A stretch of DNA of 12,167 bases from Alphaproteobacteria bacterium (GTDB lineage: Bacteria > Pseudomonadota > Alphaproteobacteria > Rhizobiales > Xanthobacteraceae): contig VAZH01000105.1 in NCBI GenBank assembly GCA_005884465.1, forward strand, positions 1-12,167, written 5' to 3'. The notes under the pieces were generated by a model. It was not told the origin of the DNA. It did not search any database and worked only from the letters and a program-made list of their open reading frames with translations. The position numbers and the translations under genes are program-made. This document shows, piece by piece, positions 1 through 10,500 of this stretch (position 1 is its first letter; every line of letters starts with the position of its first letter).

Positions 1-188
1 GAGCCGACCTTCTCGCGCCAGGCCTCATCGACATAGACATGACATGTCGCGCAGGCACAGGCGCCGCCGCATTCGGCTTCGATGCCCGGAATGGCGTTGC
101 GGATCGCGGCTTCCATCACGGTCGCGCCGTTCTCGACATCAATGGTGCGGGTTTCGCCGGTATGGTCGACAAAGCTGATTTTGGCCAT
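1..188 (-). CDS. [2Fe-2S] ferredoxin, adrenodoxin type (partial, C-terminus outside window)
   Basis: This is the N-terminal 62 residues of a small electron-transfer protein read leftward from the ATG at 186-188; the rest lies beyond the left edge. The translation begins [20 protein letters not shown] and contains [12 protein letters not shown]. That gives the C-x5-C-x2-C spacing which supplies three of the four cysteine ligands of the [2Fe-2S] cluster in adrenodoxin/putidaredoxin-type ferredoxins. The fourth cysteine should lie in the missing part. Such ferredoxins serve cytochrome P450s, ring-hydroxylating enzymes or iron-sulfur biogenesis, and the partner cannot be told from here. The only visible neighbour is the Hpt gene upstream, separated by 279 bp with two inverted repeats, so they need not be co-transcribed. 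The start has only a weak ribosome-binding site, but the N-terminus fits the family. The family is clear; the specific role is unknown. Confidence 0.9.
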
Positions 189-261
189 GTTTACTCGTGC
201 TGCCGGATAAGGAGGTCCGGGCTGTCCTATAACGGGTCGATCCGCTCCGCGCTAGTGCGGG

Positions 262-467: not shown

Positions 468-845
468 TCAGGACTGGCGCAAGATCGCATCGATTGCGAT
501 GCGCGCCTGCACGATCGCCTCGTTGAGGTCGCTGAGCGCCTCGGACGGATCGTGGCCGTTCAGTACTGCGGCTTCCAGTTGGCCGGCGGCATCGGCAACG
601 CCGGATGCGCCGATTGCGCGTGCCGAACCCTTCAGCGTATGCGCCAGCGCACCCGCGTCAGCAAGCGAGGCGGCGAGACTGCCGATCAGGCTGGCCGCCT
701 GGGCCGAAAACATCGTCAGCACCTCGCGCTCAAGCCCGGCGTCGCCAAGGGTCATGCGTTGGAGATGGTCCATGTCGATCGGACCGTCATCGGGAGCGAG
801 CGGCGGCGATGGCATCCAGGCAATCCGTTCCAGATGAAGCGGCAT
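468..845 (-). CDS. Hpt-domain (histidine phosphotransfer) protein
   Basis: This small phosphotransfer protein of about 125 residues is read leftward from the ATG at 843-845. Its core HTLKGSARAIG matches the Hpt active-site helix (HxLKGSA), with the phosphorylatable histidine at about residue 69. Flanking segments are alanine- and leucine-rich and helical, as expected for a four-helix Hpt bundle. No kinase or receiver domain is attached, so it should relay phosphate between a separate hybrid kinase and a response regulator in the cytoplasm. An alternative start at 813-815 would remove ten residues. Upstream, GGGAG lies 13 nt before the first ATG and CGGA 8 nt before the second, so neither start is decisive. 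The reading frame stays open to 974, but that extension would cover the TTAACCAT site at 909-916 and looks non-coding. The gene is divergent from the large polar protein. The partner proteins are unknown. Confidence 0.82.
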   Translation of the reverse strand: MPLHLERIAWMPSPPLAPDDGPIDMDHLQRMTLGDAGLEREVLTMFSAQAASLIGSLAASLADAGALAHTLKGSARAIGASGVADAAGQLEAAVLNGHDPSEALSDLNEAIVQARIAIDAILRQS

Positions 846-908
846 GCGATAACCAATTCTCCCGCCCGACCGATCCGGCAGTGAATTTTCCGGCAGCCAA
901 TCACGGAA

Positions 909-916
909 ATGGTTAA
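909..916 (-). promoter_or_regulatory. CtrA-type half-site (TTAACCAT) upstream of the Hpt gene
   Basis: On the minus strand these bases read TTAACCAT, the half-site form of the CtrA box known from Caulobacter and other alphaproteobacteria. It lies about 64 bp upstream of the proposed Hpt start, a plausible distance for promoter control. An 8-bp match can occur by chance, so this is suggestive only. Confidence 0.4.
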
Positions 917-1030
917 CGGAACGTTTGGGTAGCGGCCGCAAGATCGCCTTGTTTTTGGCGAAAAGTAGCCTCAATTGATCGGCTCCAACGAGAATTTTGA
1001 GGAACCGTAAGGCCTTATGGCGCTGGGCTG

Positions 1031-1236: not shown

Positions 1237-4200
1237 ATGGCGAACAATCCCAAGAAGGTCAAAGACCCTACCGAAGTCGCGCTTTCTGCCATTCAGGAAG
1301 CCTTGAACATCAGCGACGGGGCAGCGGCCGACAGCGCGCGGAGTTCAGTCCATAGCGATGCCGCGCCGACAAACGCATCTTCCACATCTTCCGCATCGAC
1401 CCCGGCCTACAACGAGAGCGCATTCGATAGCCGGCCAAACGAGGATCGGCCGACCTTCGAGCCCATCGAGGAGCCGCGCCCGACCCGCCGCGCCGCCAAC
1501 GACGACCGCGAAACCATCGGCCAGATCCTGCAGGCCATTCAGAAGGGCCGGCCCGCCCGCAATGTCTATACGCTTGCCACAATCTTCGCCGGGGTCTGGC
1601 TTGTCGGCGCCGGACTGCTGACCGTCAGCTTTCTGCCCTCGTTACAGGCGGCGATTGGTCAGGGCAGCGGCGGCACGCTGGTGTTGGCGGGCCTGGCGGC
1701 ATTGTTCTTTGCCCCGGTACTGCTCTTTTATTTCCTGGCGAGCCTTTCCTGGCGCGGCCAGGAATTACGCATGATCGCGCAGTCGATGGCGCAGGTCGCG
1801 ATCCGCTTTTCGGAACCTGAGGGCGCGGCAAGCGATTCAATGGTGACCGTTGGTCAGGCGATCCGGCGCGAGGTCGCGGCCATGGGCGACGGCGTCGAAC
1901 GCGCCATTGCACGCGCCGGCGAACTCGAAACTCTGGTTGCCAATGAAGTCGCCGCGCTTGAGCGCGCTTACAGCGACAACGAGGTGCGAATCCGCGCTTT
2001 GCTGCAGGATATCGCGCATCAGCGCGACAATCTGGTCGGCCAGGCCGAGCAGGTTCGTAGCGCCATCTCCGGCGTGCAGATCGACCTGCGCCACGATATC
2101 GCGCTGATCTCGGATGCGATCGCCTCCCGCGTCGACGAGGTCGCAAAGAGCATCACCGGTGCGCTGGAAGAACGCGGCGCCCACATCACAAGTGCGCTCA
2201 GCAATGCCGGCGACAACATGATCCTCGCGCTCGGGGAGCGCGGCGGCGACCTGCTTGACCGTCTCGAGGAAGCCAGCGCCGAAACCACGCGCGCGGTGCT
2301 CGACGCCAGCGAGCGCCTCACCAGCAGCCTCAACTTCAAGACCGGACACGTACATGACGAGTTCGCCGAGCTGGCCGACCGCGTCCACGAGGTGCTGAAC
2401 GAGCGGATCGACCGCATCACCGGCGAATTCGAGCAGCGCTCATCCACCATCGTCGACGGTATTTCCGACCGGACCGAACAGGTTCATGACTCGCTGAAGA
2501 ATTCCAGCGACTCGCTGCTGCTGGAACTTGAGCTGCGCAGTGGCGATCTGGTCAGCAAGATCGATGAAGCCGGCAACCGCCTGGCGACCCAAATCATCAC
2601 CTCCGGCGACAAGGCCAGCGATGCGCTGGACGTAACCGTGAACTCGCTGGTGGCGAAGGTCATCAGCCAGACCGAGACCGCGCACGATACGCTCTCCTTG
2701 CAGATGAGCGCGTTCGATGAACTGGTGAAGAACCAGGGCACCGAACTTGCGGAAAAATTCGCGCGCGACAGCGGCACGCTCGGTGCCATCATTACCCGCC
2801 ACATCTCGGAATTCGACCGCACCGTCAAAACCTTTGGCGGCGAGATCGTCGATCGCATGGGGCAGCGCACCGAGCATATCGCGGAAACCTTGAAGACCTA
2901 TGTCGACACCTTCGACACCCGCTTGACTTCGAATGGCGGCGAAATCACCGCTTCGCTGGACCAGCGGCTGCTGCAATTCGAGACCACACTCGGCACCCGC
3001 GTCGCCAATCTCGATACCTCGCTCGACAGCAAGATCAAATCCTTCGATGCATCCATCGACGGCCGTCTCAAATCGCTCGAACAGACCTTCGATACGCGGG
3101 CGAAGTCGGTGACCGAAACCATCGACGGCCGCCTTGGCTCGCTGGCCTCGTCCCTGACCGATGGTGCCGCGCAGGCGATCCAATCGATCGACTCGCGCCT
3201 GACCCACCTTACCTCCTCGCTGACCGATGGCACCGCACAGGCGATCGAAGCCGTCGACCGGCGCATCTCCAGCGTGACCCAGACCATCGACGGCCGCAGC
3301 GCCTACCTGACCGACACCATTACGGCCCGGTTCCAGGAAATCCACCAGGGCATCGAAAGCAGGGTCGGCGCGGTCGCCAACGACATCGATGTGCGAGTTG
3401 CACAATTCGAAGACCTGCTGGGTTCGCGTATCGAAGCCGTGGCGGGTCGCATCGAGAGCAGCGGGCGGCAAGCCAGTGAAGGTCTCATGGCACGCGCCGA
3501 AGAACTTTCGCTTGGGATCAAGTCCCACGTTGAAGATGCGGAGCGCTCGCTGACCAACCTCGTGGTGAACACCAGCGAGACCATTCAGACCGGCGCACGC
3601 GCCGCGCAGCAATCGCTGCTTTCGGTTTCCTCCGATGTCGGCGCGCAGCTGAAGCTGACCTCGGCGGAGGTCGAACGCACCCTCACCGCCGTCGGCAGCG
3701 GTGCGGCGGACTCGATTGTGAGCAGCGCCCGCGATGCGCAGTCCATGCTGGTGACGGCCTCCGGCGATGCCGCCAACCAGGTCAAATTGCTGTCGGCCGA
3801 CGTCGAACGAACGCTTTCCGCCGCCGGTACCGCGACCGCCGCGTCGATCCTCTCTGGCGCGCGCGAAGTGCAGACCACGCTGGTCACCGCTTCCTCGGAT
3901 GCCGCCAACCACGTCAAGACATTGGCGGCCGACGTTGAACAAACGCTCTCCGCCGCCGGGACCGCAGCCGCCGCGTCAATTCTCTCCGGCGCTCGTGAAG
4001 TCCAGTCCACGCTCGTCACCGCGTCCGCGGATGCTGCCAACCATGTCAAGTCGCTGGCGACCGATGTCGAACGGTCGCTGTCCATCGCAGGGACTTCCAC
4101 CGCCGAATCGATTGTCGCTGGTGCGCGCGAGGCTCAAGGCACGCTCGTCACCGCATCTTCAGACGCCGCCAACCACGTCAAGTCGCTGGCGGTCGATGTC

Positions 4201-6357
4201 GAACGTACATTGACGGCGGTCGGGGCCGACACTGCCGCCTCGGTCCTGAACAGCGCGCGCGAGGCGCAAAATGCGCTCAATGCGACGTCCGCCGACGCTG
4301 CCAGCCAGATCAAGGCGATCTCCGCGGATATCGAGCGGTCGCTCAGCACAGTCACCGCAAGCACCACGGATCATATCCAGAGCAGCGCGCTTAATGCGCA
4401 GAGCGTGCTGGTGGCCGCCTCCAACGAAGTCAGTTCGCAGGTCAAGTCGACCTCCGCAGAAATCGAACGCGCGGTTCTCGCCGCCAGCGGTGCTTTCGGT
4501 TCCACCATGACCGGCAAGACCGACGAAATCGTCACTTACGTGCAACAGCAGACCGATCGTCTGGCGCAGATGATCGACGGCAAGCGCGGATCGCTGGTGG
4601 AGGCGATCAGCGCCAAGACCAATCAACTCACGGTCGATATCGACCGCGTCACGTCGGATGCCCTGAAGTCGATCGAGAACCGGGGACAAACCTTCTCGCA
4701 GTCGGTGTTGAGCACCGGGTCCGACGTCGCGCGGACGATCACATCGGCGGGCGAATTGGCCACAGGTGCCGTCGGCAAGTCGCTGAAGGACCTGGAGCAG
4801 GCGTCGCGAGCGGCGATCGACCAGTCACGCCAGGTGTCAGTCGCCGCCGTCACCGAAATGCAGGAAACCAGCAAGATCCTGCGAACCGACACGGTCGCGC
4901 TGTTCGAACGCTTGCGCGAAGGCAATATCCTGTTGCAGGAAGTGCTGACCGGCGCCCACGACAATCTCAATTCGCTGGAGCGCGCCCTGGTCACGCGCGT
5001 GGCCGACTTCGTGTCAGCCATGAATGACGTCACCTCGCGCAACGGCGTCGCCAGCCAGACGCTGCAAAACCAGTTGAATATCTTCAACACGACAACCAGC
5101 AAGGCGCTCGAGGATCTCGGCTCGCTTTCCGGCCAGTTCGAGACCCATGGCAAGGCGCTGGTCGATGCCGCGGTTCTGGTCGAGCAAAGCAACCGCAACA
5201 CCACCGCCTCGATTTCCGAACGCAAGTCGGCGCTGGAGTCGCTGGTCACCACGATTGATCTGCGCACCGCCGATCTCGATCAGCGATTGTCGCGGTTCAC
5301 CGGCCTGCTCGACGAATCGCTGGCGGCCGCGGAAGAGCGCGCCCGCGATATCGCACGCGTGGTGGCGGAAACCGCCGGCGCGGGTTCTGCCGCGATCAGC
5401 CGGCAGTTCGAGGCCGTTCGCTCCACCGCCGAAGAGGAACGCCGCCTGACCGCCGAGGCGATGACCGAAATCTACCAGCAGAGCACGCAGGAAGCGGATG
5501 CGATGTTCACGCAGTCTGCGGAAAGGTTCGCGAACATGGTGGCGAGCATGAAGCAGATGGCTGCCGAAATGCACAACGAACTCGAGGCCACCCGCAACGA
5601 GCTTCGCCGCGGCGTGCTGGAAATGCCGCAGGAGGCCGCCGAGAGCACCGCGCAGATGCGGAAAGTGATCGTCGACCAGATCGAGGCCTTGGCGGAACTG
5701 AACCGCATCGTCGCCCATCACGGCCGCGGGCTCGACGTCGTGAGCGAGGGCCGCTCGAACTCGCATCGCGAGGAAGAGCCGATGATGGTCGCCGCCGGCG
5801 GGCGCAGTGCACCACGCATGCGCGACGGCGGCAGCGCCTCGAACCTGCCGCCGCCGGACCTGGGCGGGCCTTCCTCGCGCCGCACCGAAGCGCCGCCGGT
5901 TTCCCCCGCGAGCGCTGATCAAGGGCGCGATGGATGGCTTTCCGACCTGTTGAACCGCACCGATGCCGGCGCCGGCAACCGTGACGTCCAGCGTGGCCGC
6001 CCGCAGCAGGCGGGCGGCGGCAACCCGCTGGAGTCGCTTTCGCTCGACATCGGCCGCCTGATGGATCGCAATCTCGCCGCCGAGATGTGGGATCGCTATC
6101 AGCGCGGCGAGAGCAAGGCTTTCTCCAAGCGGCTCTACACGCCGGCCGGCCAGAAGGCCTTCGATGAAGTCGCCCGCAAATATCGCGCCGACCGCAATTT
6201 CAAGCAGACCGTCGACCGCTACATCGTCGAGTTCGAGCGCCTGCTCGACGAGGTCGCGCGCGACGAAGGCGGGGCTGCTGCGCTTCGTGGCCACCTGATC
6301 TCGGAGACCGGCCTCGTCTATACCCTGCTCGCCCACGCGGCGGGACGGTTAGGGTAA
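1237..6357 (+). CDS. Growth pole ring protein GPR/RgsE-like giant coiled-coil membrane protein
   Basis: This 1706-residue protein has a disordered, polar N-terminus (1-105), two hydrophobic segments (about 111-133 and 147-171), a very long helical coiled-coil rod (about 200-1500), a Pro/Gly/Ser-rich linker (about 1500-1580) and a compact conserved C-terminal domain (about 1590-1706, including EMWDRYQRGE and FKQTVDRYIVEFERLLDE). Basic residues before the first and after the second hydrophobic segment suggest that both ends and the rod are cytoplasmic. I find no cysteine, and tryptophan occurs only next to the membrane segments and near the C-terminus. The rod carries 22- and 44-residue repeats of apolipoprotein-like, 11-residue-based periodicity. 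This architecture matches GPR of Agrobacterium (about 2100 residues) and RgsE of Sinorhizobium, which form a ring at the growing pole and are needed for unipolar growth. Such genes are often labelled kinesin-like or ATPase, but I see no Walker motif. The assignment rests on architecture recalled from the family and is not an alignment. Confidence 0.75.
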   Translation: MANNPKKVKDPTEVALSAIQEALNISDGAAADSARSSVHSDAAPTNASSTSSASTPAYNESAFDSRPNEDRPTFEPIEEPRPTRRAANDDRETIGQILQAIQKGRPARNVYTLATIFAGVWLVGAGLLTVSFLPSLQAAIGQGSGGTLVLAGLAALFFAPVLLFYFLASLSWRGQELRMIAQSMAQVAIRFSEPEGAASDSMVTVGQAIRREVAAMGDGVERAIARAGELETLVANEVAALERAYSDNEVRIRALLQDIAHQRDNLVGQAEQVRSAISGVQIDLRHDIALISDAIASRVDEVAKSITGALEERGAHITSALSNAGDNMILALGERGGDLLDRLEEASAETTRAVLDASERLTSSLNFKTGHVHDEFAELADRVHEVLNERIDRITGEFEQRSSTIVDGISDRTEQVHDSLKNSSDSLLLELELRSGDLVSKIDEAGNRLATQIITSGDKASDALDVTVNSLVAKVISQTETAHDTLSLQMSAFDELVKNQGTELAEKFARDSGTLGAIITRHISEFDRTVKTFGGEIVDRMGQRTEHIAETLKTYVDTFDTRLTSNGGEITASLDQRLLQFETTLGTRVANLDTSLDSKIKSFDASIDGRLKSLEQTFDTRAKSVTETIDGRLGSLASSLTDGAAQAIQSIDSRLTHLTSSLTDGTAQAIEAVDRRISSVTQTIDGRSAYLTDTITARFQEIHQGIESRVGAVANDIDVRVAQFEDLLGSRIEAVAGRIESSGRQASEGLMARAEELSLGIKSHVEDAERSLTNLVVNTSETIQTGARAAQQSLLSVSSDVGAQLKLTSAEVERTLTAVGSGAADSIVSSARDAQSMLVTASGDAANQVKLLSADVERTLSAAGTATAASILSGAREVQTTLVTASSDAANHVKTLAADVEQTLSAAGTAAAASILSGAREVQSTLVTASADAANHVKSLATDVERSLSIAGTSTAESIVAGAREAQGTLVTASSDAANHVKSLAVDVERTLTAVGADTAASVLNSAREAQNALNATSADAASQIKAISADIERSLSTVTASTTDHIQSSALNAQSVLVAASNEVSSQVKSTSAEIERAVLAASGAFGSTMTGKTDEIVTYVQQQTDRLAQMIDGKRGSLVEAISAKTNQLTVDIDRVTSDALKSIENRGQTFSQSVLSTGSDVARTITSAGELATGAVGKSLKDLEQASRAAIDQSRQVSVAAVTEMQETSKILRTDTVALFERLREGNILLQEVLTGAHDNLNSLERALVTRVADFVSAMNDVTSRNGVASQTLQNQLNIFNTTTSKALEDLGSLSGQFETHGKALVDAAVLVEQSNRNTTASISERKSALESLVTTIDLRTADLDQRLSRFTGLLDESLAAAEERARDIARVVAETAGAGSAAISRQFEAVRSTAEEERRLTAEAMTEIYQQSTQEADAMFTQSAERFANMVASMKQMAAEMHNELEATRNELRRGVLEMPQEAAESTAQMRKVIVDQIEALAELNRIVAHHGRGLDVVSEGRSNSHREEEPMMVAAGGRSAPRMRDGGSASNLPPPDLGGPSSRRTEAPPVSPASADQGRDGWLSDLLNRTDAGAGNRDVQRGRPQQAGGGNPLESLSLDIGRLMDRNLAAEMWDRYQRGESKAFSKRLYTPAGQKAFDEVARKYRADRNFKQTVDRYIVEFERLLDEVARDEGGAAALRGHLISETGLVYTLLAHAAGRLG
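3142..3273 (+). repeat. Two tandem 66-bp (22-residue) repeats inside the rod
   Basis: Two in-frame copies of 66 bp, 3142-3207 and 3208-3273, encode LASSLTDGAAQAIQSIDSRL-type 22-residue units that share SSLTDGxAQAI. Around them TIDGR recurs with related spacing. Twenty-two residues is two 11-residue turns, as in apolipoprotein-like amphipathic helices, so this is a local duplication within the rod. Confidence 0.85.
3532..4455 (+). repeat. Seven tandem 132-bp (44-residue) coiled-coil repeats
   Basis: In-frame units start at 3532, 3664, 3796, 3928, 4060, 4192 and 4324, exactly 132 bp apart, and an eighth begins at 4456 and decays. They correspond to residues 766-1073. The consensus core is ADVERTLSAAGT, then ASILSGAREVQ, then TLVTASSDAANHVKSLA. 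The units starting at 3796, 3928 and 4060 are most alike, and the outer units are more diverged. Forty-four residues equals four 11-residue periods, so copy number can change without breaking the helical phase. Confidence 0.92.
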
Positions 6358-6443: not shown

Positions 6444-7316
6444 CTACTGCCGCTTCCTCTCGGCCGCCGCCGCGGGGCCGGGCTTCGGAGGTTCCGCCGG
6501 CGTGCTGGCGTTGGCCGGGCCGAACAAGAGCCGCGTCGGGTTGCGGTCGAGATTGTTCACCGCGCGACTGATGTCGCCGAGCGTGCGGCGGCCGTCAGCT
6601 ATCAAAAGACCCGATCGCTTGTCGAAATCCTCCGCCAGTTCGCGGATCGACTTCACTGCCTGGAACAGCTCGCCGCCCTCCTTGCCGCCGGCCAGCGTGT
6701 TCAGGCCCAGCATGAGGTTGTCGGCCTTGCCCATCACGCCGTCGACTTTAAGCATGACGCTGTCGATCTTCTCGGAATTGCGCGCCAGCGACGTGGTGAA
6801 GGTCTCCAGGTTATGCAGCGAGTTCTTCACCGCCTCCTGATTGTCGGCGACCACCCTGTTGATGTTCTGCAGCGTGCCGCGGATTGCCTCGGTGACGTCC
6901 TGCAGCGCGTTGGGATCGGCCGTCAGCGTGGGGACCCCGTCCTCATCCAGCGGAACCGACGGCGCGGCCTCCTCGCCGCCCTTCAGCGATATCGCTGCGA
7001 CTCCGGTCAGCCCCTGAAATTCGAGCCCGACGAGGGTGTCTTTGCGAAGCGGAGCGTTATTCTCGACCATGGCGAGTGCGACGACACGACGCGGGTTGTC
7101 GAGTTTTACCGAGATCACCTCACCTACCCGGATACCGTTGAAGTTGACGCTGCCGCCGTTGCGCAGGCCGGCCGCGGGCCCTTCGAACACAATACGCAAG
7201 GGGCTGCGCGCCTTGGTGGTGTGGAGGGACTGGAACCACAGCACAAAGCCGAACGCCGCGGCAATCACCGCCAGCGTGAACGATCCGATCAGGACGAAGT
7301 TCGCCCGCGTTTCCAT
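6444..7316 (-). CDS. mlaD: MlaD-type MCE-domain phospholipid-binding protein
   Basis: This is the substrate-binding subunit of an Mla-type ABC transporter, 290 residues long. One N-terminal membrane anchor (about 7-28) is followed by an MCE domain (about 38-115) with family patterns such as GGSVNFNGIRVGEV and EFQGLTGVAAISLKGG. A helical tail (about 135-260) then ends in a Pro/Ala-rich stretch. MCE proteins form hexameric rings in the periplasm on the inner membrane and pass phospholipids between the membranes. I chose the ATG at 7314-7316 because GGGAG lies 7 nt upstream and METRANFVLIG is a typical MlaD start; a longer open frame to 7352 has no such support. It is the last gene of the minus-strand mlaE-mlaF-mlaD set, 138 bp after mlaF, and ends at the shared terminator. 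No PqiC-like lipoprotein gene follows here. Confidence 0.93.
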   Translation of the reverse strand: METRANFVLIGSFTLAVIAAAFGFVLWFQSLHTTKARSPLRIVFEGPAAGLRNGGSVNFNGIRVGEVISVKLDNPRRVVALAMVENNAPLRKDTLVGLEFQGLTGVAAISLKGGEEAAPSVPLDEDGVPTLTADPNALQDVTEAIRGTLQNINRVVADNQEAVKNSLHNLETFTTSLARNSEKIDSVMLKVDGVMGKADNLMLGLNTLAGGKEGGELFQAVKSIRELAEDFDKRSGLLIADGRRTLGDISRAVNNLDRNPTRLLFGPANASTPAEPPKPGPAAAAERKRQ

Positions 7317-7323
7317 CAACCAA

Positions 7324-7328
7324 CTCCC
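7324..7328 (-). promoter_or_regulatory. Ribosome-binding site of mlaD
   Basis: On the minus strand this reads GGGAG, 7 nt upstream of the ATG at 7314-7316. It is the best ribosome-binding site nearby and decides the mlaD start against the longer open frame. Confidence 0.8.
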
Positions 7329-7380
7329 ATACCAGGCCAGTGAATTCAGCACGCTGAATCAGAGCCGTCATTTATCCCCA

Positions 7381-7454
7381 TGCTTTGGGCACGATCTTTT
7401 CCGAAAACCGGTATGCACTTTGCGCTAACGCGGCCCTCGGGTCGGAATCGTGCT
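7381..7454. repeat. REP-like rhizobial intergenic palindromic element
   Basis: The outer arms GCACGAT (7389-7395) and ATCGTGC (7447-7453) are exact reverse complements. Inside lies TTTTCCGAAAACCGGT at 7397-7412, itself partly palindromic. From memory, TGCTTTGGGCACGATCTTTT followed by CCGAAAACCGGT is a very common intergenic repeat in Bradyrhizobium and other rhizobia. It fills half of the 138-bp gap between mlaF and mlaD and touches the mlaF stop codon, so it would fold in the operon mRNA. It could influence mRNA stability or the relative level of mlaD. Confidence 0.8.
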
Positions 7455-8225
7455 CTAGCCCATGACAGCGCGGGCACGCTTGCCGTGGAAATAGGCCCTC
7501 AACCAGGGGTGCTCCGAGGCCTGCATGTCGGTCATCGATCCTGCTGCAATGATTTTCCCGTTCCCCAAAACGGCGATGCGGTCACAAGCGGTATAGAGGC
7601 TGTCCAGATCGTGGGTTACCATGAAAACGGTCAGCCCCAAAGTGCGCTGCAGGGTCCTGACCAGCTCGTCAAAGTCCCCGGCCCCAATGGGATCGAGGCC
7701 TGAGGTCGGCTCATCGAGGAACACCAGTTCCGGATCGAGCGCGAGCGCGCGCGCCAGCGCCACCCGCTTGATCATGCCGCCGGAGAGTTCCGAGGGAAAA
7801 CGGTCGGCGACCTCGGGGCGCAATCCCACCATGCCGAGCTTTGCCACCGTGATCTCGTCGAGCAGTCGCTGCGACACATTCAGGTATTCCCGCACCGGAA
7901 ACTGGATGTTCTGCCGCACGGTCAGGGAGGAAAACAGCGCGCCCTGCTGGAACAGGATTCCCCAACGACGCTCGACGCCGCGCCGCGCCGCGGCATCCGC
8001 GGCGTCAAGGTCAATCCCGAAAACCTCGATGCGTCCGCTGACCTTGGGGACAAGACCGATGATGGTGCGCGTCAACACCGACTTGCCCGCGCCGGAAGGA
8101 CCGACGAAGCCAAGGATTTCGCCGCGCTTCACGTCGAGATCGAGCCCGTCCAGAACCTTGGTGGTGCCGAACTGCACCGAGATATCGCGAACCCGGATAA
8201 TGGCGTTTTGCATCTCGGGGGCCAT
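7455..8225 (-). CDS. mlaF: MlaF-type ABC transporter ATPase
   Basis: This 256-residue cytoplasmic ATPase powers the Mla phospholipid transporter. All nucleotide-binding motifs are present: Walker A GPSGAGKS (42-49), Q-loop at about Q93/Q94 (LFQQGALF), signature LSGGM (147-151), Walker B ELVFLDEP (166-173) with catalytic E172, D-loop SGLDP, and H-loop histidine H205 (VTHD). LSGGM and the LFQQGALFSSLTVRQN segment are typical of the MlaF/Ttg2A branch. The start at 8223-8225 (MAPEMQNAII) lies only 2 nt beyond the mlaE stop, so translation is probably coupled. The same frame stays open for hundreds of codons upstream, but that part runs through mlaE in another frame and is a shadow. A REP-like palindrome abuts the stop codon. 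Confidence in the family is very high. Confidence 0.96.
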   Translation of the reverse strand: MAPEMQNAIIRVRDISVQFGTTKVLDGLDLDVKRGEILGFVGPSGAGKSVLTRTIIGLVPKVSGRIEVFGIDLDAADAAARRGVERRWGILFQQGALFSSLTVRQNIQFPVREYLNVSQRLLDEITVAKLGMVGLRPEVADRFPSELSGGMIKRVALARALALDPELVFLDEPTSGLDPIGAGDFDELVRTLQRTLGLTVFMVTHDLDSLYTACDRIAVLGNGKIIAAGSMTDMQASEHPWLRAYFHGKRARAVMG

Positions 8226-8227
8226 CG

Positions 8228-9361
8228 TCACATTCCGATCGAGGCGAAAAAGATCGCAAACACGCCGTCCATCACGATGACGAAGAAGATCCCCTTCACC
8301 ACCGACGACGTGGTGTGCTGTCCGAGGGATTCGGCGCTGCCCTGCACGGCGAGCCCCTCGACGCATGCGACGATCCCGATCACGGCTGCCATCACCGGCG
8401 CCTTGATGATGCCGACGGTGAAGTGATCGATCGAGATCGCATCGCGCAGCCGGAGCAGGAACGCTTCCGGATCGACGCCGCCGTAGAGCCACGCCACCAG
8501 CCCGCCGCCATAGAGCGCCGCCATGGCGCCGAGAAAGGCCAGGATTGGCAGCGCGATGATCAGTGCCAGCATCCGCGGCAGGATCAGAACCTCGATCGGG
8601 TCGAAACCCATGGTGCGCAGCGCGTCGATCTCCTCGCGCATTTTCATCGAGCCGAGTTCGGCGGTGTAGGCGCTGCCGGAGCGCCCCGCCACCATGATCG
8701 CCACCAGCAGCACGCCGATCTCGCGCAGCACCAGCACGCCCAGCATGTCGACAACGAAGATATCCGCACCGAATTTGCGGAAATGGAAGATGCCCTGCTG
8801 CGAGATGATGCAGCCGATCAGAAACGTGATCAGCACAACGATCGGCACCGCGCGCCAGCACACCTGCTCGAGATGATGCACGGTCGACGTCAGACGGAAG
8901 CCCCTGGGGTGAATCATCACCCTGCCGCTCGCCGCGAGCACGGCGCCGAGCATGTCGATCAGTCCGACGATGGTTGCGCTGATGCCGACCATGCTTCGGC
9001 CGACCTGATCCAGCATTCCGGTAATCGTTACTGATTGGGTGTCGGAAGCGGGCGCGGCTTTCACCCTGCGCACCTCGTCGACCAGGCTTGAATAGTTGGC
9101 CGAAAGCCCGGCGATCTTCGCCTCGATGCCGCCCTGGGTCAGGCTGCGGCGAAGCCGTTCGATCAACCAGGCCCCGAAGGTATCGAGCTTCGAGACCTGC
9201 GATACATCGATAAAGATGTTCGGCCGGCTTCCGGTCAGCTTTTCGGCGTCGGCAACGATCTGCTCGAGCAGCGGCGCAAAGCGGGCGGTCCACGGACCCG
9301 CTGCGCACAGCGCAAGCCCATTGCCCTGTACCATCCGCTCCAATGTCGGATCACCTCTCAC
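8228..9361 (-). CDS. mlaE: MlaE-type permease with fused N-terminal STAS (MlaB-like) domain
   Basis: This is a 377-residue inner-membrane permease of the Mla lipid transporter. Residues about 14-108 form a STAS domain like MlaB, with IDVSQVSKLDTFGAWLIERL at 51-70; D60-T61 sits at the usual STAS loop position. Residues about 125-377 are the MlaE permease, with several hydrophobic helices and the family hallmark at 227-255 (GRSGSAYTAELG, then MKMREEIDALRTMGFDP). In E. coli MlaB and MlaE are separate proteins, so here the regulatory subunit is built in. The start is GTG at 9359-9361, supported by GGAG 8 nt upstream; the next in-frame ATG (residue 10) has no such support. It is the first gene of the set and is divergent from the epimerase gene across a 143-bp gap. 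MlaA and MlaC are not in the window. Confidence 0.95.
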   Translation of the reverse strand: MRGDPTLERMVQGNGLALCAAGPWTARFAPLLEQIVADAEKLTGSRPNIFIDVSQVSKLDTFGAWLIERLRRSLTQGGIEAKIAGLSANYSSLVDEVRRVKAAPASDTQSVTITGMLDQVGRSMVGISATIVGLIDMLGAVLAASGRVMIHPRGFRLTSTVHHLEQVCWRAVPIVVLITFLIGCIISQQGIFHFRKFGADIFVVDMLGVLVLREIGVLLVAIMVAGRSGSAYTAELGSMKMREEIDALRTMGFDPIEVLILPRMLALIIALPILAFLGAMAALYGGGLVAWLYGGVDPEAFLLRLRDAISIDHFTVGIIKAPVMAAVIGIVACVEGLAVQGSAESLGQHTTSSVVKGIFFVIVMDGVFAIFFASIGM

Positions 9362-9369
9362 GATGCCAA

Positions 9370-9373
9370 CTCC
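9370..9373 (-). promoter_or_regulatory. Ribosome-binding site supporting the GTG start of mlaE
   Basis: The minus strand reads GGAG here, 8 nt upstream of GTG at 9359-9361. This supports the non-ATG start. Confidence 0.75.
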
Positions 9374-9504
9374 AGTGCCGATTCTCCGCTATTGATGGAA
9401 AAGCAAGACCCAACTCACCGCCCTTGCTTGTGGAACGCGCCCCTAACCAGCCATACTTGGTTGCGCCGGGCAAGCCGGCGATTCCGGAATTGCCAGATTT
9501 TAAA

Positions 9505-10500
9505 ATGACTTCCAGCCAATCCTCAACGCTATCAGCGAGAATCGAGCGCTGGCCGATCGCAGGCAGCTTCACGATCAGCCGCGGCGCCAAGACCGAAGCG
9601 GTCACCGTGGTGGCGGAAGTCCGCCGTGGCGGCCGTACCGGGCGCGGGGAATGCGTCCCCTACCCGCGCTATAGCGAGAGCCCGGAAGCGACCTTGGCCG
9701 CCCTTCAGGCGATGCGGGAACCCTTATCCCGCGGGCTCGACAGGGAGGCCCTGCAGACCGCGATGCCTCCAGGTGCCGCCCGCAACGCGCTGGATTGCGC
9801 ATTGCTGGACCTCGAAGCCAAGACGCGTGGTCAGCGCGTCTGGGACCTGCTCGGGCGTCCGGCGCCCGGCGCTTGCGTCACCGCCTACACGATTTCGCTT
9901 GCGTCGCCCGAGACGATGGCGGCGGCGACCGCCCAAGTCGCGCATCGGCCGCTACTCAAGATCAAGCTTGGCGGCCATGGCGACGGCGAGCGGATCGCGG
10001 CGGTACGCAAGGCCGCGCCTCGATCCGAACTCATCGTCGACGCGAATGAGGCATGGACATCAGGCAATCTCGAGCAAAATCTCGCGGCATGCGCGAAAGC
10101 CGGCGTCACGCTGGTCGAGCAGCCGCTTCCCGCCGGTCAGGATGAGGCGCTGGCGCGCATCGCGAGGCCGCTTGCCGTCTGTGCGGACGAAAGCGTGCAC
10201 GATCGCTCTTCGCTGGATGCGCTGCGCGCACGCTATGACGCCGTCAATATCAAGCTCGACAAGACAGGCGGGCTGACGGAGGCACTGGCGACGGCCGACG
10301 TAGCGCGCGCCTTGGGATTTCAAATCATGGTCGGCTGCATGGTCGCGACCTCGCTGGCGATGGCGCCCGCGATGTTGCTGGCGCGCGAGGCCCGCTTCGT
10401 CGATCTCGATGGCCCTCTGTTGCTGGCGCGCGACCGCGATGGCGGCTTGCGCTACGACGGCAGCCTGGTTTATCCCCCGGACGCCGCGCTGTGGGGTTGA
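9505..10500 (+). CDS. Dipeptide epimerase (L-Ala-D/L-Glu epimerase family, enolase superfamily)
   Basis: This 331-residue cytoplasmic enzyme belongs to the muconate-lactonizing subgroup of the enolase superfamily. The acid/base lysines are visible as KIK (152-154) and NIK (K250). The magnesium ligands fit VDANEAW (D179), VEQPLP (E205) and CADES (D228). A DLD motif at 300-302 matches the DxD signature of dipeptide epimerases, which bind the dipeptide amino group. The classic member converts L-Ala-D-Glu from murein breakdown to L-Ala-L-Glu for recycling. A related enzyme (DgcA) instead racemises N-acetyl-D-glutamate, but its usual partner DgcN is not visible here. I chose the ATG at 9505 because homology begins there (ARIERWPIAGSFTISRGAKT). 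The open frame runs back to 9343, inside divergent mlaE, and that part looks non-coding. The ribosome-binding site is poor. The 3' end overlaps the converging MFS gene by 31 bp. Confidence 0.9.
   Translation: MTSSQSSTLSARIERWPIAGSFTISRGAKTEAVTVVAEVRRGGRTGRGECVPYPRYSESPEATLAALQAMREPLSRGLDREALQTAMPPGAARNALDCALLDLEAKTRGQRVWDLLGRPAPGACVTAYTISLASPETMAAATAQVAHRPLLKIKLGGHGDGERIAAVRKAAPRSELIVDANEAWTSGNLEQNLAACAKAGVTLVEQPLPAGQDEALARIARPLAVCADESVHDRSSLDALRARYDAVNIKLDKTGGLTEALATADVARALGFQIMVGCMVATSLAMAPAMLLAREARFVDLDGPLLLARDRDGGLRYDGSLVYPPDAALWG

Follow-up and report, generated by a model that had tools for sequence, protein, structure and literature searches.

A probable GPR/RgsE ortholog with a hendecad-register rod in a Bradyrhizobium-like member of the Rhizobiales

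The question raised by the locus

In Rhizobiales that lack MreB, GPR/RgsE has been named as a scaffold candidate for the confinement of wall growth to a single pole (PMC8546619). The locus considered here lies in a window of 12,167 nucleotides (the whole stretch of DNA that was analysed), taken from a draft genome of 3.83 Mb that is 70.9% complete. The gene at 1237-6357 had been read in a first-pass annotation as a likely member of this family. Is the gene an ortholog of GPR/RgsE or a long coiled coil that merely resembles one, and what do its rod, its neighbours and its relatives say about its role?

Layout of the gene and its protein

The features of the window are collected in Table 1. The two N-terminal hydrophobic segments, the linker ahead of the C-terminal domain and the conserved C-terminal domain proposed in the first-pass annotation could each be placed on the protein. 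The linker contains 11.4% proline and 14% glycine, and the last 113 residues are conserved in a 62-sequence alignment and all-helical in a structural model (pLDDT 85). Between residues 341 and 1420, a stretch of 1080 residues, there is not a single proline.

Table 1. Features of the window (coordinates in nucleotides of the window; residues are those of the window protein)
Feature	Position	Strand	Remarks
Partial 2Fe-2S ferredoxin gene, truncated at the window boundary	3..251	-	66% identical over 62 aa to the Agrobacterium gpr neighbour
Divergent single-domain Hpt phosphotransfer gene	468..974	-	AHTLKG motif
gpr/rgsE-family gene	1237..6357	+	1706 aa, ATG start, stop codon included
First membrane helix, residues 115-133	1579..1635	+	Hydropathy
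Second membrane helix, residues 149-167	1681..1737	+	Hydropathy
Conserved juxtamembrane region, residues 173-279	1753..2073	+	59% identical to Agrobacterium GPR
Unbroken hendecad rod, residues 255-1179	1999..4773	+	85 consecutive 11-residue units, I/L/M/F/V at the same place
Tandem repeat inside the rod, 132 bp = 44 aa = four hendecads	3725..4205	+	3.6 copies
Remainder of the helical region, residues 1180-1505	4774..5751	+	Hendecad register lost or shifted, partly heptad-like
Pro/Gly-rich linker, residues 1506-1593	5752..6015	+	Composition
C-terminal all-helical domain, residues 1594-1706	6016..6354	+	No match in the Pfam copy scanned
mlaD-like gene, convergent neighbour	6444..7352	-
mlaF-like ATPase gene	7455..8261	-
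mlaE-like permease gene	8228..9361	-	Weak N-terminal STAS-like match
dgcA-like (N-acetyl-D-Glu racemase) gene	9343..10500	+	Family match begins at residue 64

The best homologs that carry names come from Bradyrhizobium and Pseudolabrys. Such genes were said to be usually labelled hypothetical or kinesin-like; both labels do occur, the second (as kinesin-like or Kinesin) on homologs from Liberibacter and Bartonella, but the labels are mixed, with lipoprotein, apolipoprotein and 'negative regulator of septation ring formation' also among them. Matches to the gpr/rgsE family fall at one place in the source genome, and since that genome is 70.9% complete, the absence of paralogs, like that of MreB (see below), is weak by itself.

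Probable identity as a GPR/RgsE ortholog

Five proteins served as references: those of Agrobacterium arsenijevicii (2115 aa), A. tumefaciens BIN17 (2120 aa) and Agrobacterium genomosp. 13 (2116 aa), which stand in for strain C58, and those of A. vitis CG78 (2254 aa) and Sinorhizobium meliloti 4H41 (2094 aa). The published lengths are 2,115 aa for GPR (Atu1348) and 2,089 aa for RgsE (SMc00190), with a mutual identity of 42% (PMC7327166). The S. meliloti and A. tumefaciens references are 41% identical, and they and the other two proteins of 2115-2120 aa fit the published GPR and RgsE.

Alignment of the two ends of the window protein carries the assignment. Residues 173-279 are 56-59% identical to the five references (E 2e-37 or better; 59% over 107 aa and E about 5e-39 for Agrobacterium, 56% for S. 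meliloti), and the C-terminal domain, aligned from 1597 to 1704-1706, is 50-52% identical (E about 1e-35; 51% over 109 aa for Agrobacterium, 52% for S. meliloti). The rod is far less similar, at only 20-26% identity (about 23-26% for Agrobacterium GPR) with E values of 1e-6 to 2e-9, while shuffled and reversed controls gave a best E of 0.001. The likeness thus lies mainly outside the rod. GPR also shares with the window protein two N-terminal membrane segments and a proline-rich region before the C terminus (residues 1890-2000 in GPR; both features of GPR are described in PMC8262873), and RgsE is alike in the same respects. The window protein is shorter than either relative, as had been pointed out for GPR.

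Could this likeness be one of composition only, between GPR and a generic coiled-coil or motor-associated protein of the ZorA, SMC or kinesin-like kind? A weak NCBIfam match to ZorA and the kinesin labels on relatives point that way, but the ZorA score is 19.4 bits against a cut-off of 190, the homology extends to both ends beyond the coiled coil, and the gene order is shared (see below). Because of the homology at both ends and the synteny we reject this explanation, to which we would assign virtually no probability; on the sequence comparisons it is already refuted, unless both conserved ends were acquired separately. Matches to SpiroCoCo and LA_3659 fell far below their cut-offs, and a weak match to fvmYukDl_N in the Pfam scan of the window protein was likewise below its own. 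Among the curated families scanned there was no better match than GPR/RgsE; of the two outcomes that would have spoken against the first-pass reading, a likeness confined to the coiled coil or a better-fitting family, neither was seen.

The whole protein matches the apolipoprotein family PF01442 of Pfam above its cut-off (167.3 bits, cut-off 90), as do the references from Agrobacterium (175.2 bits) and S. meliloti (259 bits). The eukaryotic apolipoproteins A1, A4 and E, which are matched by the same profile, have an amphipathic periodicity of 11 and 22 residues. The profile probably follows this rhythm, and the likeness is likely one of shared periodicity, not of shared descent. Scored stretch by stretch in the source genome, PF01442 stays below its cut-off, and it is not specific, giving sub-cut-off signals in 7 of 14 control genomes; descent from an apolipoprotein is unsupported. 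The window protein differs from apolipoproteins in being membrane-anchored, in its 1080 residues without proline breaks, and in being much longer than their 250-400 aa or so (PMC8262873).

We conclude that the gene is very probably a GPR/RgsE ortholog in a Bradyrhizobium-like member of the Rhizobiales, with a putative scaffold role at the growing pole. The lineage had been called little studied. That holds insofar as a literature search found no paper on GPR/RgsE in Bradyrhizobium and no localisation or mutant in the lineage of the window, but the family itself has been reported in all Rhizobiales families (PMC7327166), and therefore it is only the lineage that is little studied.

A rod in strict hendecad register

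The rod had been described as some 1300 residues long with 11-residue-based repeats. The repeats are real, and stronger than that description conveys. The hydrophobic period of the rod is 3.664 residues, that is 11/3, and none of 500 shuffles was as strong at this period; the heptad period is at noise across 341-1420 taken whole, and the identity autocorrelation of the rod peaks at lags of 44, 88, 132, 22 and 66. From residue 255 to 1179, each position whose number equals 2 modulo 11 holds I, L, M, F or V, 85 times in a row, where the longest such run in 30 shuffles was 7. However, not all of the roughly 1300 residues are hendecad, because beyond about 1180 the register is gone and heptad character is more marked in windows between 1216 and 1358; the hydrophobic phase is constant from about 281 to 1193 and then shifts. 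So strict a register suggests one rigid rod, which would measure about 139 nm if residues 255-1179 form one straight helix at 0.15 nm per residue.

The run of consecutive hendecads differs between relatives, from 61 in S. meliloti (residues 284-944) and 64 in Agrobacterium (263-956) to 85 in the window protein and 106 in a genome of the same genus (G032). Among close relatives the rod changes length in hendecads, often by the 44-residue unit. In a sample made up of the 37 best-matching homologs (P0001-P0037), all of them close relatives, 85 of the 86 net rod indels of at least 5 residues relative to the window protein are multiples of 11, as are 37 of 38 distinct rod indel events, and the copy number of the 132-bp (44 aa) repeat differs between homologs. 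When distant relatives were included, in a cruder length test on every fetched protein longer than 1300 aa that showed both anchor motifs, 50 of 76 differences in rod length were multiples of 11 (about 7 expected by chance). A strict 11-step rule is thus unsupported in distant relatives, although 24 of the remaining 26 differences leave a remainder of 8 or 4 on division by 11, which looks like the inheritance of single changes out of step. The 11-residue steps may be the reason why the window protein is shorter than GPR, and the pattern suggests that the phase of the rod, more than its length, is under selection.

Among the matches listed in a literature search, no paper joined hendecads with GPR or with the Rhizobiales. 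PMC8262873 depicts GPR with apolipoprotein-like domains and 21-residue coiled-coil regions, rather than hendecads.

A common Hpt gene upstream

The gene order ferredoxin-Hpt-gpr is common to the window, A. tumefaciens and S. meliloti, both of which have the divergent Hpt and the ferredoxin gene upstream, so that comparison of the neighbourhoods bears out the assignment. In one Agrobacterium locus (L183) the Hpt gene, at 8156-8524 on the minus strand, likewise stands back to back with gpr. Across 109 loci with at least 2.5 kb of upstream sequence, a count that excludes the window (1.2 kb, both genes present), a divergent Hpt was found in 101 and the ferredoxin in 107. This sample is dominated by Rhizobiaceae-type loci, in which both genes are present in 90 of 90; the 19 loci from other families have Hpt in 11 (it is missing in 8) and ferredoxin in 17. 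Thirteen further members of the order from other families, nine of them MreB-bearing, contain the divergent Hpt in 12 cases and the ferredoxin in all 13. Outside the order, a strong divergent Hpt lies upstream in 4 of 7 loci of one set and 1 of 20 (L299) of another, in addition to a weak divergent one at locus L284.

The histidine of the HxLKG motif (AHTLKG in the window), which we take to be the phospho-acceptor, is kept in 114 of 122 aligned Hpt copies. That the back-to-back pair has been kept over such depth suggests a functional link between Hpt and gpr. The literature search returned no description of the gpr-adjacent Hpt as a phosphorelay partner, and no paper in the literature searched mentions the tags numerically next to Atu1348 or SMc00190, which are the candidate tags for the Hpt genes. 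Rhizobium etli has an essential hybrid kinase, RdsA, whose gene does not lie near any Hpt gene (PMC9022086); that the gpr-adjacent Hpt might serve RdsA would be a guess.

Lipid-transport genes downstream

While the upstream genes are the same, those downstream of gpr differ between the window and Agrobacterium or S. meliloti. In the window, a lipid transporter and a racemase/epimerase gene (6444-10500) adjoin the gene for the putative growth scaffold. Of 101 loci with sufficient flank, 45 have convergent mlaD-mlaF-mlaE genes downstream of gpr, and dgcA comes next in 32 of them. In Agrobacterium and S. meliloti the 9 kb examined beside gpr contain no mla gene, and with 45 of 101 loci a universal partnership of mlaDFE with gpr is unsupported. 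The STAS match of the mlaE-like permease (22.0 bits against a cut-off of 22.6) looks as if MlaB were fused to it, and the true start of the dgcA-like gene is probably internal, because the family match begins well inside the reading frame. A gene for a class A penicillin-binding protein occurs near gpr in three of the 112 sequences searched, all Agrobacterium (L179, L183 and L185); in L183 it spans 19988-22435 on the minus strand, about 4.6 kb downstream.

These neighbours bring in another possible function. A period of 11/3 is also that of helices that lie on membranes, and the rod might be such an amphipathic structure, comparable to an apolipoprotein or a lipid-droplet coat, that works with the adjoining Mla transporter. 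The PF01442 match, the period itself and the convergent mlaDFE genes all fit this proposal, and a role in lipid metabolism has been proposed for GPR (PMC8262873). Nevertheless, the 1080 residues without proline, the acidic character of the rod (net charge -32 over 341-900 and -20 over 901-1420) and the absence of mla near gpr in Agrobacterium and S. meliloti speak against it, and we find a membrane-lipid protein of this kind quite improbable as the main explanation. It would be compatible with a scaffold role.

The C-terminal domain and the distribution of the family

The alignment of the C-terminal domain comprises 62 sequences: the window protein, L183, L143 and 59 of 87 references. At E 0.1, no Pfam family matched more than two of its members, and comparison of the modelled domain with the PDB gave no clear relative. 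Many homologs of the gene are annotated with a newer Pfam family, PF28217, which did not appear in the Pfam scans used here.

All 120 genomes of the order that were scanned, the source genome among them, were matched by a profile built from nine homologs. A second profile, made from seven further relatives, found a match in 99 of the 101 genomes of family f22, taken for Rhizobiaceae from the names of its relatives; the two without a match are G184 and G232, and six strongly reduced genomes of the family (G142, G174, G202, G213, G215 and G231, 1.1-1.5 Mb) keep the match. Among 140 alphaproteobacterial genomes counted as outside the order (all but three rows, marked as own or same order), 51 have a match, in most cases to the C-terminal domain; 69 matchless genomes are unlisted, and loci were fetched for 34 of the 51 with a match.

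Proteins with the domain outside the order reach 2418 aa. In the first set of 14 (L248-L261), the domain ends no more than 10 residues from the C terminus, and nine have two membrane segments, as do 17 of the 20 in the other set (L282-L301); 33 of these 34 lack a long hendecad run. Runs of at least 12 hendecads occur in 73 of 77 rows of the order against 1 of 34 outside it; the minimum of 7 in L168 perhaps reflects an antisense ORF, as the longest ORF was taken. In these sequences the layout of two membrane segments and a C-terminal domain extends to other alphaproteobacterial orders, mostly without the 11-residue rod.

Rod length and MreB

True MreB, scoring 367-485 bits, is present in 17 of the 120 genomes of the order. 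PF06723 at E 1e-20 found none in the source genome, in two members of its genus or in one of its family (G032, G103 and G072), and across the source genome and 18 others of the genus the best MreB score is 62.5 bits (67.6 summed over the frame). All 17 MreB-bearing members (G001, G010, G016, G023, G028, G029, G034, G035 and G036 among them) nevertheless have a GPR-family match. Its length is 815-1498 aa in the 16 measurable cases, against 845-2940 aa in the 99 MreB-less genomes measured. Proteins of at least 1500 aa are found in none of the 16 and in 76 of the 99; when families are counted instead of genomes, the figures are 0 of 9 and 27 of 37. These lengths run from stop to stop and are hence somewhat too long; 4 of 119 genomes (G022, G045, G055 and G081) were dropped from the count with the gene split over contigs or frames, and G117, G033 and G063 are without the C-terminal domain in the same frame.

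Is a long rod, then, a mark of MreB loss? In a tree of 74 rows made by a quick method, long rods fall in one large clade (SH-aLRT 87) and one smaller branch. Of the independent pairs in this tree, one agrees with the association between length and MreB, none opposes it and six show no difference, and MreB has been lost without lengthening in, for example, G002, G008, G027 and G049. The tree leaves out L040, L054, L061, L222, L233, the outgroups L250-L256 and rows without a match to each of the two domains, and it scores the MreB-untested rows of f22 as MreB-less and G138 (partial MreB match, 103 bits) as MreB-bearing. Although the plain counts are strong, rod length as a mark of MreB loss is thus confounded by descent, and the tree lends it no independent support; the relation between length and MreB is largely a matter of shared descent, a pattern and not a cause. 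The same caveat holds for the hendecad runs in MreB-tested genomes, which are 14-57 units long in MreB-bearing (n=12) and 5-151 in MreB-less members (n=51).

According to PMC7327166, the MreB-bearing Rhizobiales examined there are without Rgs homologs, under a size filter for RgsE of 50% either way. With the reservation that the order used here is a database grouping that may not equal the Rhizobiales of that study, the short homologs found where MreB is present call for an amendment, as far as RgsE is concerned, of the published idea of mutual exclusion between MreB and Rgs proteins.

A polar landmark or a growth scaffold?

Orthologs of the window protein are membrane-anchored, cytoplasmic, new-pole proteins required for normal rod shape, and Agrobacterium GPR is needed to confine wall synthesis (PMC8262873, PMC7327166, PMC9938171). 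GPR and RgsE sit at the growing pole, and cells that have lost them are misshapen (PMC7327166, PMC8262873); Brucella RgsE also localises to the pole (PMC9938171). Further traits by which the GPR/RgsE family is recognised are a polar ring or focus during growth, a hexameric form, and interaction with TolQ, RgsA and RgsS. By analogy with these orthologs, the window protein would be anchored in the inner membrane of the new pole, would extend its rod into the cytoplasm, would assemble into a ring-like scaffold, and might there gather the machinery for peptidoglycan and membrane synthesis in a lineage without detected MreB.

An ortholog by descent could, on the other hand, serve chiefly as a landmark that positions the chromosome, the flagellum or division, in the manner of TipN, and not as a growth scaffold. 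By published description, TipN of Caulobacter crescentus is a membrane protein of the new pole whose coiled coil is large and cytoplasmic (PMC4460556), though at 882 aa (PMC13170164) it is much smaller than the window protein; GPR has been called similar (PMC8546619) or analogous (PMC13170164) to TipN, and a different role for distant RgsE homologs has been raised (PMC7327166). The relatives outside the order that have the C-terminal domain, many with two membrane segments, and the short form retained in MreB-bearing members are likewise in keeping with a landmark. The window protein, however, shares its long hendecad rod with the proteins that act as growth scaffolds, falls in the tree among the long-rod rows (on a branch with SH-aLRT 87 that is not starred) and comes from a lineage in which MreB was not detected. 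For this protein a landmark function therefore seems unlikely to us.

A wider model would place the growth scaffold and the landmark in one family. GPR/RgsE may be the Rhizobiales branch of a class-wide alphaproteobacterial family of polar scaffolds (two membrane segments, a coiled coil and the C-terminal domain), with TipN as the Caulobacter member. This branch, coupled to a dedicated Hpt, would have gained a hendecad rod that varies in 11-residue quanta and serves as a phase-locked ruler of the growth zone, the longest rods within the order occurring only in MreB-less lineages. We put this model forward tentatively, with rather less than even confidence.

Implications

The window protein very probably belongs to the already known GPR/RgsE family, and what the analysis adds is the phase-locked rod, the pairing with Hpt and the occurrence of the C-terminal domain beyond the order. 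The gpr-adjacent Hpt is a possible phosphorelay partner of the growth scaffold. The 11-residue register, the 11-step length changes in close relatives and the common Hpt neighbour give testable handles on polar growth.
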